50,252 bases of DNA from IMG/VR virus record IMGVR_UViG_3300008117_000064, positions 1 through 50,252 of that record. The stretch is one strand, 5' to 3'. Positions 6,571-14,962 of this stretch are shown here, piece after piece (within the stretch, counting starts at the first letter, position 1; each line of letters begins with the position of its first letter). Both the position numbers and the translations under genes were made by a program. The DNA comes from a virus. The notes under the pieces were generated by a model, which saw only the letters and a program-made list of their open reading frames with translations, did no database searches and was not told the origin of the DNA.

Positions 6571-7251
6571 ATGAAAAAATGTACAAAATGTAAAAAAGAA
6601 AAAGAAATATCAGATTTTCATAAACATAAAAAAACAAAGGATGGTCTATGTTGTAGATGTAAAGAATGTTCTTTAGAAGATAAGAGAGAATATTATAAAA
6701 ATAATAAAGATAAGGTAAAGGATGGTGTTAAAAAATATAGAGAAGAAAATATTGATAAAGTAAAAGAACGTGTTAAAAATCATTACGAAAAAAATAGAGA
6801 TTCTTTATTGGAATATAAGAAAAAATACCACATTGATAATGATGAAAGAAGAAGAGATTTAAATTATAAGTGGCGAGAGAAAAATAAAGATAAGATTAGA
6901 GAATATGCTAAAGATTATATTTCAGAAAAGAGGAAGAATGATATACTTTTTAAGATAAAAGATAGTATATCTGGTTTAATACGTAGTTCGATTGTGAGTA
7001 AGGGATATAAAAAGTTGTATAGAACTGAATCTATATTAGGTTGTACAATAGATGAATTTAAAGATTATATACAAAGTAAATTCTTAGATGGTATGACCTG
7101 GGAAAATCATGGTGAGTGGCATTTGGATCATAAAACTCCGGTTTCATGGGCTATAAGTGAATCTGAAGTATATGAGTTAAACCATTATAAAAATTTTCAG
7201 CCTCTTTGGAAGACTGAAAATTTAATTAAGGGTAATAGATGGTCTGATTAG
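6571..7251 (+). CDS. HNH homing endonuclease
   Basis: Free-standing homing endonuclease. Residues 4-33 form a Cys4 zinc knuckle (CTKC, then CRCKEC); a long Lys-rich helical linker follows (about 35-125). The C-terminal nuclease part contains LGCTIDEFKDY, MTWENHGEWHLDHKTPVSWA and LNHYKNFQPLWKTENLIKGN, the D-H...N...N arrangement of phage HNH enzymes. It is clearly paralogous to the product of 30429-31205. It sits just past the 3' end of the polymerase fragment, overlapping it convergently by 4 bases, so the polymerase gene is probably its homing target region. Confidence 0.85.
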   Translation: MKKCTKCKKEKEISDFHKHKKTKDGLCCRCKECSLEDKREYYKNNKDKVKDGVKKYREENIDKVKERVKNHYEKNRDSLLEYKKKYHIDNDERRRDLNYKWREKNKDKIREYAKDYISEKRKNDILFKIKDSISGLIRSSIVSKGYKKLYRTESILGCTIDEFKDYIQSKFLDGMTWENHGEWHLDHKTPVSWAISESEVYELNHYKNFQPLWKTENLIKGNRWSD

Positions 7252-8567
7252 TATTTCATACCAAATCCTGAAAATATGTCTAATACAACTGATAATCTTT
7301 CTGTAATCTCTGGCATTCCTAATGGTTCAATAATTGAGTTTATAGGTGATAGAATTGCTTTATAAAATTGAGTTGTATAATCGACTTGCGGAGCGAACTC
7401 GATTGGATAAGAACCTCTAATATAAGCAAAGATATCACCGTTTGATTTATTCTTACAATAGTAATACTTAATCTTAGTACCTGACTTAATCATCTCATAC
7501 TTATCAGCAAATTGCTTATTAGTGTGTAATAAGTAGTTGTAAAGAGCTGATGCTTTAACAGCAAAGTGAGCTCCTGTTACAAACTCTAATGGTAAAGCTT
7601 TATCATTAATAACTTTAGTATCATAGTTAGAACAAGAAGATTGCATTGCAATATCATCAATATCAGCTAACTCAAACTCTTTTCTTAAATCTTTAACTAA
7701 TTTTAATAACTCTTTTATGTTAAATGTATTTGAGTTTTCAAATAAGTATTTAACGATGTTGATAATTTTCTCTCTTGCAAAAAGAGGTGTTGATGATCTA
7801 ACTAACTCAACTCCTTTAGGGAATAAGTAAGTTAATCTATCATAAGGAATACCATCTTCAAATACAACGTGTTGAATATATTTCTTTTTAGCGATTGATA
7901 TAATTGATTCTGAAACTCGTTCTAACTCAAAGTCTTCTTTATTTTCAACTCCAAAAGATCCGGCGTATTCTTCTAAACAAGTCTTGAAATAATCAGCATA
8001 TCTAAAATGATCAATACCATGTATATAATCCAATTCGTTAGACCAATTCCAAATGGGTTCACAAGTAAGAGATCCAAAATTTATTAGTTTATTCAAATCT
8101 CTATTTTTAGCAAAATGTCCGTCAATGATTATCATTTCATAATCGGTTGATAATAAATTTTCAAAGTCATTATACTTATCTACATATCCTAAACAATTAG
8201 GGTTATTAAAATTGACATCTTCTTTAGATAATACAATAAACTTTTTGTCAATACTTTCAAGATTACTTTTATTAATAAAGATATTTTTCCATTCAGAGTG
8301 TTCAATTGCTGGTAAGAAAGAAACAAATAATGAGTCAGTATCTGCATAAATACTTACCGGTTCTGAATTAGGTATTTGAGTTACATTTCTAATTCCTAAT
8401 TTATTATGTAGTTCAAAGTCTAAGTGCCATTGATTATACCAATAGTCTTCATTAACTCTATCCATTGTCTTTGTTAAATCTCTACCTTGTGCAGTGATGG
8501 TACCAGCCACATGATTGTTAAACAAGATAAAGTATGGTGTTGCGAATGCTCCGTAAGATCCATTCAA
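7248..8567 (-). CDS. DNA polymerase family B, C-terminal part (T4 gp43-like), interrupted
   Basis: Replicative polymerase palm/thumb part. It begins in motif B (KLVLNGSYGAF, aligned with T4 KILINSLYGAL), has motif C YADTDS (about residues 74-79), the KKKY motif (about 230) and a C-terminus like that of T4/RB69 polymerase. Motif A and the exonuclease domain are absent. The only in-frame start is a TTG inside motif B; upstream the frame has CTA AAA TTA GTT and then two TGA stops. The missing preceding residues are encoded just upstream at 8611-8718 in another frame, separated by a 40-nt hairpin insert. With that insert skipped, the product would be 476 residues. The N-terminal half is not in this window. 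Confidence 0.88.
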   Translation of the reverse strand: MNGSYGAFATPYFILFNNHVAGTITAQGRDLTKTMDRVNEDYWYNQWHLDFELHNKLGIRNVTQIPNSEPVSIYADTDSLFVSFLPAIEHSEWKNIFINKSNLESIDKKFIVLSKEDVNFNNPNCLGYVDKYNDFENLLSTDYEMIIIDGHFAKNRDLNKLINFGSLTCEPIWNWSNELDYIHGIDHFRYADYFKTCLEEYAGSFGVENKEDFELERVSESIISIAKKKYIQHVVFEDGIPYDRLTYLFPKGVELVRSSTPLFAREKIINIVKYLFENSNTFNIKELLKLVKDLRKEFELADIDDIAMQSSCSNYDTKVINDKALPLEFVTGAHFAVKASALYNYLLHTNKQFADKYEMIKSGTKIKYYYCKNKSNGDIFAYIRGSYPIEFAPQVDYTTQFYKAILSPINSIIEPLGMPEITERLSVVLDIFSGFGMKY

Positions 8568-8576
8568 AACTAATTT

Positions 8577-8616
8577 TAGTCATCACCCCCTCAAAATAAA
8601 TTTGAGGGGGTTAAAA
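8577..8616 (-). other. 40-nt intervening element in polymerase gene (candidate ribosomal bypass)
   Basis: On the minus strand the coding sequence for ...ALQLAL is followed by TTT TAA, an 11-bp perfect hairpin (arms 8585-8595 and 8601-8611, 5-nt loop, core CCCCCTC/GAGGGGG), two TGA stops and then CTA AAA TTA GTT, where the polymerase frame resumes. Removing exactly 40 nt restores ALQLALKLVLNGSYG, which aligns without gap to T4/RB69 polymerase. A Leu CTT codon (8617-8619) precedes the gap and a Leu CTA codon (8577-8579) ends it, a plausible take-off/landing pair. GC content is far above that of the surroundings. RNA removal, or simple gene decay, are the alternatives. Confidence 0.7.
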
Positions 8617-8718
8617 AAGAGCGAGTTGAAGTGCGTTGTAGTAGTCTACCTCTTTCTTCAACTCGCTCGCTTTATTTTTTAATGACTCTAGTTCTTTAAT
8701 TTTTTCTTCCCTAGTCAT
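8611..8718 (-). CDS. polymerase fingers-domain segment upstream of the 40-nt interruption
   Basis: A 35-codon frame starting MTREEKIKELESLKNK and ending DYYNALQLALF then TAA. Its last residues align with the helix directly before motif B in family B polymerases (T4 FNNKQLNRK next to KILINSLYG), so it is the 5' part of the same polymerase segment as 7248-8567. An in-frame TAA lies 8 codons before the ATG, so the frame does not continue into an N-terminal half. Thus the polymerase is split in the fingers, as known for gp43A/gp43B of some Aeromonas T4-like phages, and this frame is probably the true start of the second gene. Confidence 0.75.
   Translation of the reverse strand: MTREEKIKELESLKNKASELKKEVDYYNALQLALF
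8619..8668 (-). repeat. 13-bp perfect inverted repeat in polymerase coding sequence
   Basis: Arms 8619-8631 (GAGCGAGTTGAAG) and 8656-8668 (CTTCAACTCGCTC) enclose a 24-nt loop that can itself form GTAG/CTAC. In the minus-strand mRNA the 3' arm ends at the first base of the Leu codon preceding the 40-nt interruption. A perfect GC-rich 13-bp stem inside coding DNA this AT-rich suggests selection for RNA structure. Confidence 0.75.
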
Positions 8719-8795
8719 ATTTTTTAATTTTTTTTCAATTTAGTCCTAATGGGGACTTATAGTTTTTATATATAATAAAAATTTATATAGTTTAT

Positions 8796-9899
8796 ATGAT
8801 TAAAGAAGACAAAGTTTTAGTTAAAATAAATATTAGAAATAAATCTCACTATTCTGAGTTGGGATATTTAATTGATAATGAAATAATTGTTGATGTTGAA
8901 CATTTACCAAGTGGATCTAAAACCAAAGTAACTGCTATATGTGATATATGTAAATCCGAAAGTTCAATATCATATTCAAAATATCTAATAAATATGAATA
9001 GGAATAACAAAGGATATTATTCTTGCTTTAATTGTAAAAATCATGTTAAAGAAAAGACATGTTTAGAGAAGTATGGTGTTAGATCATATTCGATGACAAG
9101 TGAATTTAAATCAACTGAAAGTGAAAAATGGAAAGGTATTAAAAAGGGATCCGAAAAAGGTAAAAAGACTATGATGGAAAGATATGGTGTTGATTCCTAT
9201 TTTAAGACTGATATAATGCGTATTAAAAATCGAGAGTGGATGTCATCAGATGAATTTCGTAATAAGTCAAAGGAGACTTTAATTAGTAGATATGGAGTGG
9301 ACTCTTATTCAAAAACAGATGAGTTTAAAAGATTATTATTTGATAATAAAGATATTATCTTAGATAAGATTAAGAGTACTTTTAAAGAAAAATATGGAAA
9401 TGAATATTTATCAAAGACTGATTATTGGAAGTCAATATTTAATAATAAAAAGAGTGAGATGGTCGATAAAACAAAAAATACTTGTTTAGAGAAGTATGGT
9501 GTTGATAATGTCAGTAAGGTTGAGTCTATTAAAAGTAAAGTTAAATTAACTAAGGAATTAAATGGACTTATTATACCAGAAAGTGAATTAAGTGATTGGG
9601 TTACTTATAAAAAAGTAGTTAGAAACACAACAAAATTAAATAAAAAGTTTTTATACGAAAATTGGGATGGTTTTGACTACTATGATAATGAGTTTATAAA
9701 AGGATATGCTTCATATACACATACGCATAGATTTTACCCTACAATAGATCATAAAATTTCTGTTTATTATGGATATGTTAATAAAATAGATCCAATTACA
9801 ATTGGATCTATTGATAATCTTTGTATTACGAAAAGATTTATTAATTCTATAAAAAATTCTTTAATTGAAGAAGAATTTATCTCAAAGTATCAACTATAA
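8796..9899 (+). CDS. homing endonuclease with EKYGV repeats and HNH-like C-terminus
   Basis: The 367-residue protein has an N-terminal zinc-binding part (CDICKSE, then CFNC), four or five copies of a DNA-binding-type repeat (CLEKYGVRSYS, MERYGVDSYFKT, ISRYGVDSYSKT, KEKYGNEYLSKT, CLEKYGVDNVSK) and a C-terminal segment with THRFYPTIDHKIS and GSIDNLCIT that resembles HNH-type enzymes. It is divergent from the interrupted polymerase segment, with only 77 bases between starts. This placement parallels mobA next to the T4 gene 60 bypass element. The 3' end overlaps the convergent gene at 9877 by 23 bases. Confidence 0.8.
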   Translation: MIKEDKVLVKINIRNKSHYSELGYLIDNEIIVDVEHLPSGSKTKVTAICDICKSESSISYSKYLINMNRNNKGYYSCFNCKNHVKEKTCLEKYGVRSYSMTSEFKSTESEKWKGIKKGSEKGKKTMMERYGVDSYFKTDIMRIKNREWMSSDEFRNKSKETLISRYGVDSYSKTDEFKRLLFDNKDIILDKIKSTFKEKYGNEYLSKTDYWKSIFNNKKSEMVDKTKNTCLEKYGVDNVSKVESIKSKVKLTKELNGLIIPESELSDWVTYKKVVRNTTKLNKKFLYENWDGFDYYDNEFIKGYASYTHTHRFYPTIDHKISVYYGYVNKIDPITIGSIDNLCITKRFINSIKNSLIEEEFISKYQL

Positions 9900-10233
9900 C
9901 TGTTGGAGTTTTAGTTGTACTTGTATCTAATTTTTCTTTTGTTTTTGGTTTAAAGAACTTAACTTCTTTTTTTGGTTGAACAATAATAACTGGTTTTGTT
10001 AAACTATCATTCTCCTCTTTTAATTCTTTTATTCTACAAGTGTTATCACTAATTTCTTGTAAATTAGAAAGGTTTTCATCTTCTAAACCATTAATAGTTT
10101 CTCTTTGATAATTTAAAAAATAAAGTAAAACACCAATAACAATTATTAGTATTGTTATTACTCTATTCTTTTTATCAATAGCCGCATTTTTATTATAATA
10201 TGGTCTTCGTTGGTATCTATTATTCATCTTCAT
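9877..10233 (-). CDS. single-pass membrane protein with coiled coil (i-spanin-like)
   Basis: A basic, Asn/Arg/Tyr-rich N-terminus (about 25 residues) precedes one hydrophobic helix (RVITILIIVIGVLLYFLNY, about 24-43), then a heptad-like segment (about 45-80) and a Pro/Lys/Thr-rich tail. This N-in, C-out layout fits an inner-membrane spanin, but no partner lipoprotein is adjacent and the homology is not recognised. It lies immediately downstream of the clamp gene on the same strand (23-base gap), so it may be co-transcribed with it. Confidence 0.6.
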   Translation of the reverse strand: MKMNNRYQRRPYYNKNAAIDKKNRVITILIIVIGVLLYFLNYQRETINGLEDENLSNLQEISDNTCRIKELKEENDSLTKPVIIVQPKKEVKFFKPKTKEKLDTSTTKTPTVIVDTLR

Positions 10234-10256
10234 TAAAATATTGTTTGTAATAAATA

Positions 10257-11036
10257 TTAAACATCATCATCAGACCAGTCTTGTTCGAATGAAAGCATTA
10301 AGTTTGATTCCTCGTCTTTTATTAGCATAAATGTTTCAAATATGTGAAATGTTATTTCTTCTTTACTATCATTTATACAAGAAAGGAATTTTTTATTTAA
10401 GATAAAACTAGCATTTCTATCTTCAATTTCATCAATTTCTAGTTCCCAAGCTGATGTCTCAGTCATTTTAACTAAACCTTTAACTACGTTTATATTTAAT
10501 AGTTTAGTACCGTTAATAGAAGATAACTTTTTAATATCTAAATAATCATTTCTTTTTATTGAGAAACTCCATTTTTTGTTTTTAAGATCTAAACCTTTAG
10601 ATAAAGATGTTTTATTCATATCTCTAATCTCATAATGTTCACCAGCGATCAAATTAATCTTTAGTTTACCACCAACTAATTGAATAGCTCTTGCATCCAT
10701 AACAGTATCATCATCATGATTTTGTTTATATGAGATTTCAAATGTAATTTTCTCATTACTTTGTAGAAACTCTAAGTTTTTAACAAACTTTTTACCTTCT
10801 AAAATAACGATATCAAATGTATTTTCTAATTCATCTTTCATTTCAAATAAATCAGATGTTTTAAACATATAGTTTTTGAATGCTAAAACAGCAGCTTTAC
10901 CTAAAACAGAATAGATTAAGATATCATCATTATCAATTTTTAGTTTTATTGTAGGTGATATTTTAGTTAGGTCTTCTAGTTTCTTCAAGAAGTCACCAAA
11001 CTTTTCTGTTTTTACTTTAAATTTTATTTTATCCAT
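10257..11036 (-). CDS. sliding clamp, T4 gp45-like
   Basis: The 259-residue acidic beta-rich protein has the length and strand pattern of trimeric DNA sliding clamps. The start resembles gp45-type clamps (KFKVKTEKFGDFLKKLEDL followed by PTIKLKIDNDD), with a second similar domain from about residue 130. No catalytic motif is expected. It would tether the polymerase to DNA and, in T4, also activates late transcription through gp33/gp55. Neighbouring polymerase and primase genes support the call. No clamp loader (gp44/62) is in the window. Confidence 0.65.
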   Translation of the reverse strand: MDKIKFKVKTEKFGDFLKKLEDLTKISPTIKLKIDNDDILIYSVLGKAAVLAFKNYMFKTSDLFEMKDELENTFDIVILEGKKFVKNLEFLQSNEKITFEISYKQNHDDDTVMDARAIQLVGGKLKINLIAGEHYEIRDMNKTSLSKGLDLKNKKWSFSIKRNDYLDIKKLSSINGTKLLNINVVKGLVKMTETSAWELEIDEIEDRNASFILNKKFLSCINDSKEEITFHIFETFMLIKDEESNLMLSFEQDWSDDDV

Positions 11037-13950: not shown

Positions 13951-14100
13951 ATGAAAGCTAAAGAAATAATGGAGAAATATAAAATTACTAGAAATACATT
14001 GAGTAATTGGGTTAAAAGAGGATGGATAGAAGTTGAGATTTTACCATCCGGTAGATATATCTATCATGAGGTAAAAATTATTAAAAATAATGAGTGTTAA
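13951..14100 (+). CDS. 49-residue helix-turn-helix protein
   Basis: Translation begins MKAKEIMEKYKITRNTLSNW and continues with VKRGWIEVEILPSGRYIYHE. The pattern (A/K-x-E-I-x-x-x-Y-x-I-T-R-x-T-L-x-x-W-x-x-x-G-W-I) is that of a MerR/excisionase-like winged HTH: recognition helix, then a short beta wing. It overlaps the downstream endonuclease start by 11 bases, so the two are probably translated together. It could be a repressor of the endonuclease or a DNA-binding subunit; both are inference. Confidence 0.7.
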   Translation: MKAKEIMEKYKITRNTLSNWVKRGWIEVEILPSGRYIYHEVKIIKNNEC

Positions 14101-14962
14101 ATTCGATAATAATGATTTTATAAGAGAATCTATAAAAATACATGGTGATAAATATGACTATTCTTTAGTTAATTATACTAAATCATCTGAAAAGATTATT
14201 ATTAATTGTATGATACATAGACCTTTTGAACAAAGAGCATCTAATCATCTCAGAGGGCGAGGTTGTTATTTTTGTAAAAAATCTAAAAAATATGATTCTG
14301 ATAAATTTATAGAACTATCTAAGAAAGTACATGGTGATAAATATTTATACAAAAATACAATATATACTGGATCTCATAAAAATGTTGTAATAACTTGTAG
14401 AATACACGGTGATTTTAACCAATCACCAACTAATCATCTAAGTGGTAAAGGTTGTTCTTTTTGTGCCACTGAAAAAAATAGATTAAGTCAAGACTATTTT
14501 ATCGAAAGATGTAATTTGGTGCATAACTATAAATATGATTATAGTTTGGTTCGGTATAAAAATTTAAGGTCAAAAATATTAATAATTTGCAAACATCATG
14601 ATTCATTTGAACAAAGAGCTAAAAATCATTTATTTGGTCAAGGTTGTCCGGAATGTGGTGATAATTTTGGTGTAAAGGAAAATAAATGGTTAGATTCTCT
14701 AAATATATCAGAGAGACAAGTTAGAATAGGTGAGTATATAGTTGATGGATATGATCCTGAAACTAAAACTGTTTATGAATTCAATGGTGATTTTTGGCAT
14801 GGCAATCCAGATGTTTTTAAACAAAATGATTATAATAATGTTTTGAAAAAGACATTTGGTGAATTATATAAAAAAACATTAAATAAAGAAAATAATCTAG
14901 TTAAGATGGGTTTTAATATTATCTCTATTTGGGAAAATGATTTTAATAAACTATTTTTGTGA
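14090..14962 (+). CDS. EDxHD/Vsr-like homing endonuclease with zinc repeats
   Basis: Residues 1-190 contain three repeats of about 60 residues (HGDKYDYSLVNY ... CMIHRPFEQRASNHL ... GCYFC) with paired Cys and His, a DNA-binding repeat seen in phage and bacillus homing enzymes. The C-terminal domain has VDGYDPETKTVYEFNGDFWHG, resembling the Vsr-like EDxHD nuclease core (I-Bth0305I type). It ends FNIISIWENDF. It is preceded by and overlaps a small HTH gene. Recognition is by motif; precise target unknown. Confidence 0.8.
   Translation: MSVKFDNNDFIRESIKIHGDKYDYSLVNYTKSSEKIIINCMIHRPFEQRASNHLRGRGCYFCKKSKKYDSDKFIELSKKVHGDKYLYKNTIYTGSHKNVVITCRIHGDFNQSPTNHLSGKGCSFCATEKNRLSQDYFIERCNLVHNYKYDYSLVRYKNLRSKILIICKHHDSFEQRAKNHLFGQGCPECGDNFGVKENKWLDSLNISERQVRIGEYIVDGYDPETKTVYEFNGDFWHGNPDVFKQNDYNNVLKKTFGELYKKTLNKENNLVKMGFNIISIWENDFNKLFL

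Follow-up and report, generated by a model that had tools for sequence, protein, structure and literature searches.

A candidate family of translational bypass elements at motif B of a split phage DNA polymerase, often beside a homing-endonuclease gene

The window, which is the whole stretch of DNA analyzed here, is a virus record of 50,252 bases. The phage records closest to it around the polymerase are those of 634-642-kb uncultured phages. The C-terminal gene of a split family B DNA polymerase lies on the minus strand of the window and is interrupted by a short gap (Table 1). The gap separates the body of the gene from its start codon and from the 34 N-terminal residues that lead up to motif B. 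After the gap the frame reads AAA TTA GTT TTG AAT GGA TCT TAC GGA and runs to 7248, and it differs from the pre-gap frame. The gap hairpin has its arms at 8601-8611 and 8585-8595, and the two UGA codons of the gap are located at 8585-8580. A first-pass annotation of this DNA had listed ALQLAL, TTT TAA, a perfect 11-bp hairpin, two TGA codons and a resumed KLVLNGSYG on the minus strand, and all of these were confirmed in the sequence. It had also held that skipping exactly 40 nt, with a change of frame, joins the two halves. This skip does fuse both parts with zero residues lost relative to uninterrupted relatives (24 alignments in one comparison, 17 in another). The codons just 5' of the gap form a further stem-loop of 13 bp (arms 8656-8668 and 8619-8631), which the annotation did not contain. 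Its statement that motifs B and C would be separated without bypassing or RNA removal is wrong, because motif B (K..LNGSYG) and motif C (YADTDS) both lie 3' of the gap in one frame.

Table 1. Features at the interrupted polymerase gene of the window.
Feature	Position	Strand	Evidence
Upstream mini-ORF: start ATG and the 34 initial codons (..YYNALQLAL) of the C-terminal polymerase gene, followed by UUU UAA	8611..8718	-	Aligned to uninterrupted relatives; matching start region in intact relatives
Ser signature region, mini-ORF codons E-S-L-K	8677-8688	-	Gapped vs intact comparison
5' stem-loop within coding sequence, touching first base of take-off codon	8619..8668	-	Inverted repeat; MFE -26.9, z -6.5 vs synonymous shuffles; covariation among gapped genes of site 1, no excess in intact ones
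Proposed take-off codon CTT (Leu)	8617..8619	-	Junction comparison
40-nt gap including landing codon	8577..8616	-	Alignment to uninterrupted relatives
In-frame stop UAA, second codon past take-off	8611..8613	-	Sequence
Gap hairpin, perfect 11-bp stem, 5-nt loop	8585..8611	-	Inverted repeat; energy -19.9, z -7.0
Proposed landing codon CTA (Leu), two in-frame UGA before it	8577..8579	-	Junction comparison
Remainder of C-terminal polymerase gene (KLVLNGSYG onward: motif B, motif C, rest)	7248..8576	-	ORF; PF00136; phrog_262
Homing-endonuclease-like gene, divergent from mini-ORF	8796..9899	+	DUF7487; phrog_3339

The uninterrupted relative L003 aligns weakly across motif B with solved family B polymerases (E 6e-4 to 2e-3, six sequences), and this alignment places the break just before the motif B lysine, which we take to be catalytic. 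The polymerase is encoded by two genes far apart in seven large records, which are possibly incomplete and of which G004 (464 kb) is the gapped one. The N-terminal half was not found within the 50,252-base window. The first-pass annotation had raised the possibility of a second, intact polymerase gene. No second motif B match was present in the seven large records, one of them gapped and any of them possibly incomplete, and G004, which may be incomplete, has a single motif B region together with the N-terminal half. Numbers of tRNA genes are 7 in G004, 45 in W02 and 27 in G001 (to base 400,000 only), and none were detected in the window. Two of those in W02 are tRNA-Leu(UAG), and no tRNA-Leu was found in G004. 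Four relatives (L035, L054, L060, and L127) have about 1.6-2.0 kb of extra sequence near YADTDS, between motifs B and C, which is what an intein or intron inserted at motif C would look like. On the plus strand of the window, a small hairpin, AGTCCTAATGGGGACT, followed by a T-rich tail lies at 8742-8757 between the nuclease gene and the mini-ORF, and stretches resembling it by eye stand 5' of the polymerase gene in L021, L065, and L041. A terminator as the explanation of the gap is unsupported; a simple scan of 7000-10500 flags two sites, neither within the gap.

Comparison with related loci was based on 72 sequences, namely the window, loci from two viral-contig scans, and three phage records, and 70 of these have a readable junction. 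Among the matches listed, the second viral-contig scan added L112, L127, and nine distant loci (L152-L160); the motif search found no junction in eight of the distant loci (L152-L159). The counts given here leave out L152-L160 as well as L020 and L042, which are contigs beginning inside the gene. A scan of genome contigs yielded zero relatives. Gap-free related polymerases, which the first-pass annotation had suggested aligning, are common: 27 of the 70 readable junctions are uninterrupted, and 43 carry a hairpin gap of 36-48 nt inside one 10-codon stretch. The 43 gapped loci comprise 31 distinct junction sequences and 30 distinct gaps, the lengths of which leave a remainder of 1 (12 gaps), 0 (nine gaps), or 2 (nine gaps) when divided by three. 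Gaps follow QLAL (14 distinct, that of the window among them) or QLA (4 distinct) at site 1, KLV at site 2 (L035), LNG or LNGS at site 3 (L068, L071, and L034), and LNGSY at site 4 (8 distinct). Several split points fit L068 and L071, and the one chosen preserves the spacing to the hairpin. The window junction recurs identically in contig L006, possibly not an independent sample. Apart from the window, there are 42 gapped contigs, which belong to 39 metagenome ids. The identical junction in L006 and the comparable gaps in 43 of 70 loci show that the window gap is not due to chance.

Gap state changes often among close relatives. A tree of the post-gap part of the polymerase (54 rows) needs at least 16 changes of gap state, 12 of which are forced by well-supported branches. 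The post-gap protein is identical between L022 (site 1) and L024 (site 4), and their DNA is 92% identical over 6.2 kb, but their gaps differ. Between intact L018 and gapped L023, identity is 87-95% in the four longest aligned stretches. The tree and these two comparisons indicate that gaps are gained and lost fast. The sequences show that a hairpin gap of 36-48 nt has arisen or disappeared repeatedly in this gene, at six codon positions, with the protein conserved on both sides. Such gaps were also sought in other genes by comparing 2,388 distinct ORFs (G004 and W02 whole, G001 from 1 to 400,000, and the loci). The scan, which requires a relative in the set, recovered 30 of the 43 known polymerase gaps, thus missing about three in ten, and within these 2,388 ORFs it found no other gene with such a gap. 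It returned 34 places, of which 31 are the polymerase gap (with one gap entered under both L065 and L180); the remaining three (in L009, L010, and L177) have 89-116 extra nt, low identity, and by eye no such hairpin.

Matched codons are what re-pairing of a peptidyl-tRNA would need and what excision of RNA would not. In all 22 distinct gaps at sites 1-3, the final codon of the gap is synonymous with the codon that precedes the gap, and five amino acids are represented. The pairs are CTT or CTG with CTA, GCT with GCA or GCT, GTT with GTT, TCT with TCA, and GGT with GGT; the last, in L068 and L071, depends on the chosen split point. Counting one codon match per amino acid, the joint chance estimated from the base make-up of the linkers is about 3e-10, a rough value that assumes independence. 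In the window, CTT and CTA, which had already been proposed as take-off and landing codons, conform to this pattern as a synonymous pair with different third bases. None of the eight distinct gaps at site 4 has a Tyr landing codon; the codons in that place are AGC, AAC (three gaps), TAA (two gaps), CAA, and GAC. In the site-4 loci L041/L055 and L024, UAA is directly before the resumed frame, and a stop codon thus occupies the presumed landing position. In 28 of 30 gaps, T is the third base of the codon preceding the gap, compared to 503 of 1,185 four-fold codons after the gap in the same genes. The matched codons could partly be leftovers of a short duplication made when the gap was inserted. 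Against such an origin, they are in codon phase and persist while the rest of the gap has diverged.

Stop codons are nearly always present in the gap. Among the 30 gaps, the first in-frame stop is codon 1 in three, codon 2 in 23, and later in three, and one gap has none. The first-pass annotation had compared the window with T4 in having a stop near take-off. An in-frame UAA is indeed present, but UUU stands between it and the take-off codon, unlike T4, where the stop follows take-off directly. A stop right after take-off is not known to be required for bypassing in general. The sense codon that precedes the stop was rejected as the take-off codon because its use would add or replace a residue at motif B and would leave no matching landing codon. 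Site 4 may be a looser version with minimal re-pairing, or it may use another mechanism. Minimal pairing can reportedly suffice, to judge by the title of Herr 2004, which is cited in PMC3014915. Looser re-pairing at site 4 would be possible in light of that title and of the byps of Magnusiomyces capitatus, in which take-off and landing codons are imperfectly matched in several cases (PMC5009743, in the sections available).

Both predicted RNA structures at the junction are recurrent. The hairpin is found in 30 of 30 distinct gaps, with z-scores from -3.9 to -10.1 against mononucleotide shuffles. Its stem begins 5-6 nt past the take-off codon in 29 of them and 3 nt past it in L023. Gap stems covary, and five or six kinds of pairs occur at inner stem positions. 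The 5' stem-loop at take-off beats synonymous shuffles (p<0.05) in 20 of 20 sequences at site 1 and in the one sequence at site 2, with mean z-scores of about -5.6 to -6.4. It is significant in 3/3 sequences at site 3 (z -2.0 to -2.7) and in 2/8 at site 4, and in intact genes a significant fold occurs in 4/21 at the site-1 position and in 1/21 at the site-4 position. In L035 (site 2) the 5' stem-loop, like the gap, is located further downstream. Across 19 site-1 sequences, 87.9% of the cells of the 13-bp 5' stem are paired, and in 6 pairs both partners have changed. On every measure, no more than 1 of 500 shuffles reaches the observed value, and slid versions of the stem have much lower scores. 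In 21 intact genes, the corresponding columns are 44.7% paired, with no excess of both-side changes. One site-1 sequence, L112, does not fit this register (6/13 pairs) and folds in another. T4 gene 60 gave z-scores of -0.3 for the 5' side and -1.6 for the gap in the same folding tests, and neither value singles it out; the match between its take-off and landing codons was recovered. Thus the 5' stem-loop of the polymerase genes exceeds synonymous shuffles, whereas that of T4 does not.

Gapped and intact genes also differ in a residue further upstream. Fourteen residues upstream of the YYN anchor, Ser is present in 26 of the 31 gapped sequences and in none of the 21 intact ones (kinship ignored). 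In the window, the GAG UCA codons of this region can pair with the landing stretch, and co-changes are seen in L009, L056, L066, and L038. Own pairing exceeds swapped pairing at site 1L (p 0.013, 14 sequences) and not in other groups; this result was found post hoc and is a lead only. The Ser signature may be a nascent-peptide signal, part of a long-range RNA pairing, or the trace of a transferred tract.

Homing endonucleases are a further element of the locus. The first-pass annotation had pointed to one nearby, which is the divergent gene next to the mini-ORF. In 19 of the 33 gapped rows of the tree, a relative of this gene stands no more than 2.5 kb upstream of the polymerase gene; this is so in none of the 21 intact rows (Fisher 5e-6, kinship ignored). 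Over 12 independent pairs, the association has the same direction in about 6 and the opposite direction in none, with a median p of 0.03. In three of the 19 positive rows, less than 2.5 kb of upstream sequence is covered; one of the 19, L028, has only a nuclease fragment in the other orientation, and L067 is rearranged. The other 14 of the 33 gapped rows have no upstream endonuclease. Three intact loci, L036, L044, and L059, have weaker nuclease matches in other places, of which the one in L036, about 1.5 kb past the gene start, is the closest. The window contains two further endonuclease-like ORFs on the plus strand, at 6571-7251 (phrog_1035, endonuclease VII), which abuts the 3' end of the polymerase gene, and at 14090-14962 (phrog_559, HNH endonuclease).

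Programmed translational bypassing of the 40-nt gap, of the T4 gene 60 type but as a new variant, is the likely explanation of these features. The first-pass annotation had favored bypassing, and at the level of sequence this reading is supported by the codon matches, the covarying 5' stem-loop, the 27 intact junctions among 70, the lack of a second motif B match in seven large and possibly incomplete records, and the presence of the upstream nuclease in gapped alleles only. The ribosome would translate 34 codons from the ATG at 8718 and reach CTT (8619-8617) with peptidyl-tRNA-Leu. There, codon-anticodon pairing would tend to be lost under the influence of the strong hairpin ahead and of the 5' stem-loop as it refolds. 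The ribosome would then slide past the hairpin, and the tRNA would re-pair with CTA (8579-8577). Translation would restart at AAA, the motif B Lys, in the new frame, giving the product ..QLALKLVLNGSYG... The chief difficulty for bypassing is site 4, where the codons do not match, followed by the sense codon beside take-off in most gaps.

Removal at the RNA level would cover every site, including site 4 with its unmatched codons. The hairpin would be excised from the mRNA by an endonuclease and ligase, or as a small intron, and a continuous message would be read. In the predicted folds of five site-4 sequences (L021, L023, L024, L027, and L032), bases close to the two ends of the gap form pairs that are not part of the main stem, and excision of the whole hairpin is imaginable. 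We nevertheless consider RNA removal improbable, because the gap borders share no common nucleotides by inspection and follow the local codon, both ends encoding the same residue in all 22 gaps at sites 1-3, while excision would let one copy drift. Rfam gives no match in the window at gathering thresholds, and to our knowledge the gap is far too short for known self-splicing introns. Simple frameshifting or readthrough was rejected since gap lengths leave every possible remainder modulo 3 and 29 of 30 gaps have an in-frame stop. Two separate proteins might be made if a 34-residue peptide (plus Phe) ended at UAA and the remainder were started separately, and the polymerase is already two genes in relatives. 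Possible starts are present in 16 of 31 distinct junctions: TTG in the window (at 8567, before AAT GGA), L019, L028, L038, and L056, and some ATG, GTG, or TTG in 11 others. This arrangement is very unlikely, given that 15 of the 31 junctions contain no ATG, GTG, or TTG in the stretch from the last in-frame stop to the conserved GAF.. segment, and the first possible start is 29 codons further on in 12 of those 15. In addition, the TTG start in the window would drop the motif B lysine, which is kept after the gap at site 1. The start-less junctions, together with the UAA immediately before the post-gap segment in L024 and L041, imply that ribosomes arrive from the upstream ORF or that the RNA is rejoined.

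Homing elements can damage genes, and a gapped copy could be a pseudogene in phages replicated by another polymerase. This is hardly credible given the conservation of the gene. In 10 differing pairs of gapped loci, the nonsynonymous/synonymous ratio (uncorrected proportions) is 0.06-0.22 over 73 codons after the gap, well below 1, and 0-0.38 over 29 codons before it. Codon conservation on either side shows only that both sides are translated. The single motif B region and N-terminal half of G004 (464 kb, possibly incomplete) also argue against a dead gene. All of the sequences are metagenome contigs, and an assembly or sequencing error might be suspected. The probability of this is negligible with the same junction in the window and L006, 42 further gapped contigs from 39 metagenome ids, and covarying stems.

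The polymerase gap and the nuclease gene are apparently a mobile unit. If the gap is bypassed, gap and nearby homing endonuclease would be inherited as a single mobile cassette. The nuclease would cut the gap-free motif B, a conserved target, and repair would copy both the gap and the nuclease gene. The gap is assumed to shield the new allele from the nuclease, while bypassing would spare the polymerase. The nuclease gene may later have been lost in some lineages that retained the gap. A wider reading, which we offer tentatively and rate somewhat short of probable, is that, in huge phages, a family of mobile bypass cassettes has invaded a single conserved catalytic motif many times, at six codon positions, rebuilding the codon pair and the 5' stem-loop at most of them. 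Site 4 would then be a second way of skipping the hairpin without cognate re-pairing.

Byps number 81 instances in one mitochondrial genome, that of Magnusiomyces capitatus. They are also multiple short inserts skipped by ribosomes (PMC5009743, in part). Byps are many per genome, whereas the gaps described here occur only in the polymerase gene among 2,388 ORFs including a gapped 464-kb genome (the scan found 30 of 43 known gaps). The available sections of PMC5009743 do not tie byps to a homing endonuclease, and the gaps here are often beside one. According to the same sections, few occurrences of bypassing were known before the mitochondrial ones. Hops have also been proposed in a phage gene, the terminase of Streptomyces phage Hau3, and for bacteria in an adhesin gene of Prevotella loescheii (29 nt). 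Unlike the present family, both are single candidates by those descriptions; the Hau3 case is tied to the codon UUA (PMC5009743). Jumbo phage MIJ3 likewise has a split polB and a homing endonuclease, but its polB is described as containing a putative split intein, i.e., protein splicing, and the portion of the report available describes no hairpin gap (PMC6892783).

T4 gene 60, with its 50-nt bypass followed by orf 60.1 and mobA, is the closest parallel in layout. It is also a split replication gene with a folding gap of similar length and matching take-off and landing codons. A homing endonuclease gene likewise lies near the gapped gene, and relatives without the gap exist (PMC3014915; PMC5009743, both in part). 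In the same sources, bypassing is apparently unique to gene 60 among T4-related phages (PMC3014915), the T4 5' stem-loop is thought to drive the ribosome forward on zipping up, and the T4 gap may have protected against a nuclease (PMC5009743). Protection of the gapped polymerase allele from its nuclease is suggested here by analogy. Gene 60 encodes a topoisomerase subunit and is one case, whereas the present gene encodes a DNA polymerase, has its gap just before motif B, and is represented by 30 distinct gaps at six codon positions. In T4, TAG directly follows take-off and the codons are identical (GGA/GGA); here, the stop is mostly the second codon and the window pair is synonymous (CTT/CTA). 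The nuclease described here is divergent and DUF7487-like, while T4 mobA is annotated as a defective H-N-H enzyme. No report of bypass elements in huge-phage polymerases was found in the open-access PMC literature, preprints aside, as judged by titles and the beginnings of abstracts. Compared to T4 gene 60, whose mechanism the polymerase gaps most likely share, what is new is a different gene, many members, several positions, and apparent mobility with a nuclease family of its own.

Bypassing is well documented in only a couple of biological settings. The 30 distinct gaps, with intact relatives as controls, some of them close, make the rules of take-off, landing, and stem-loop testable by comparison. 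Gene callers will truncate gapped polymerases of this kind. The locus points to a mobile cassette of nuclease and gap that is able to occupy the catalytic core of a replicative enzyme.
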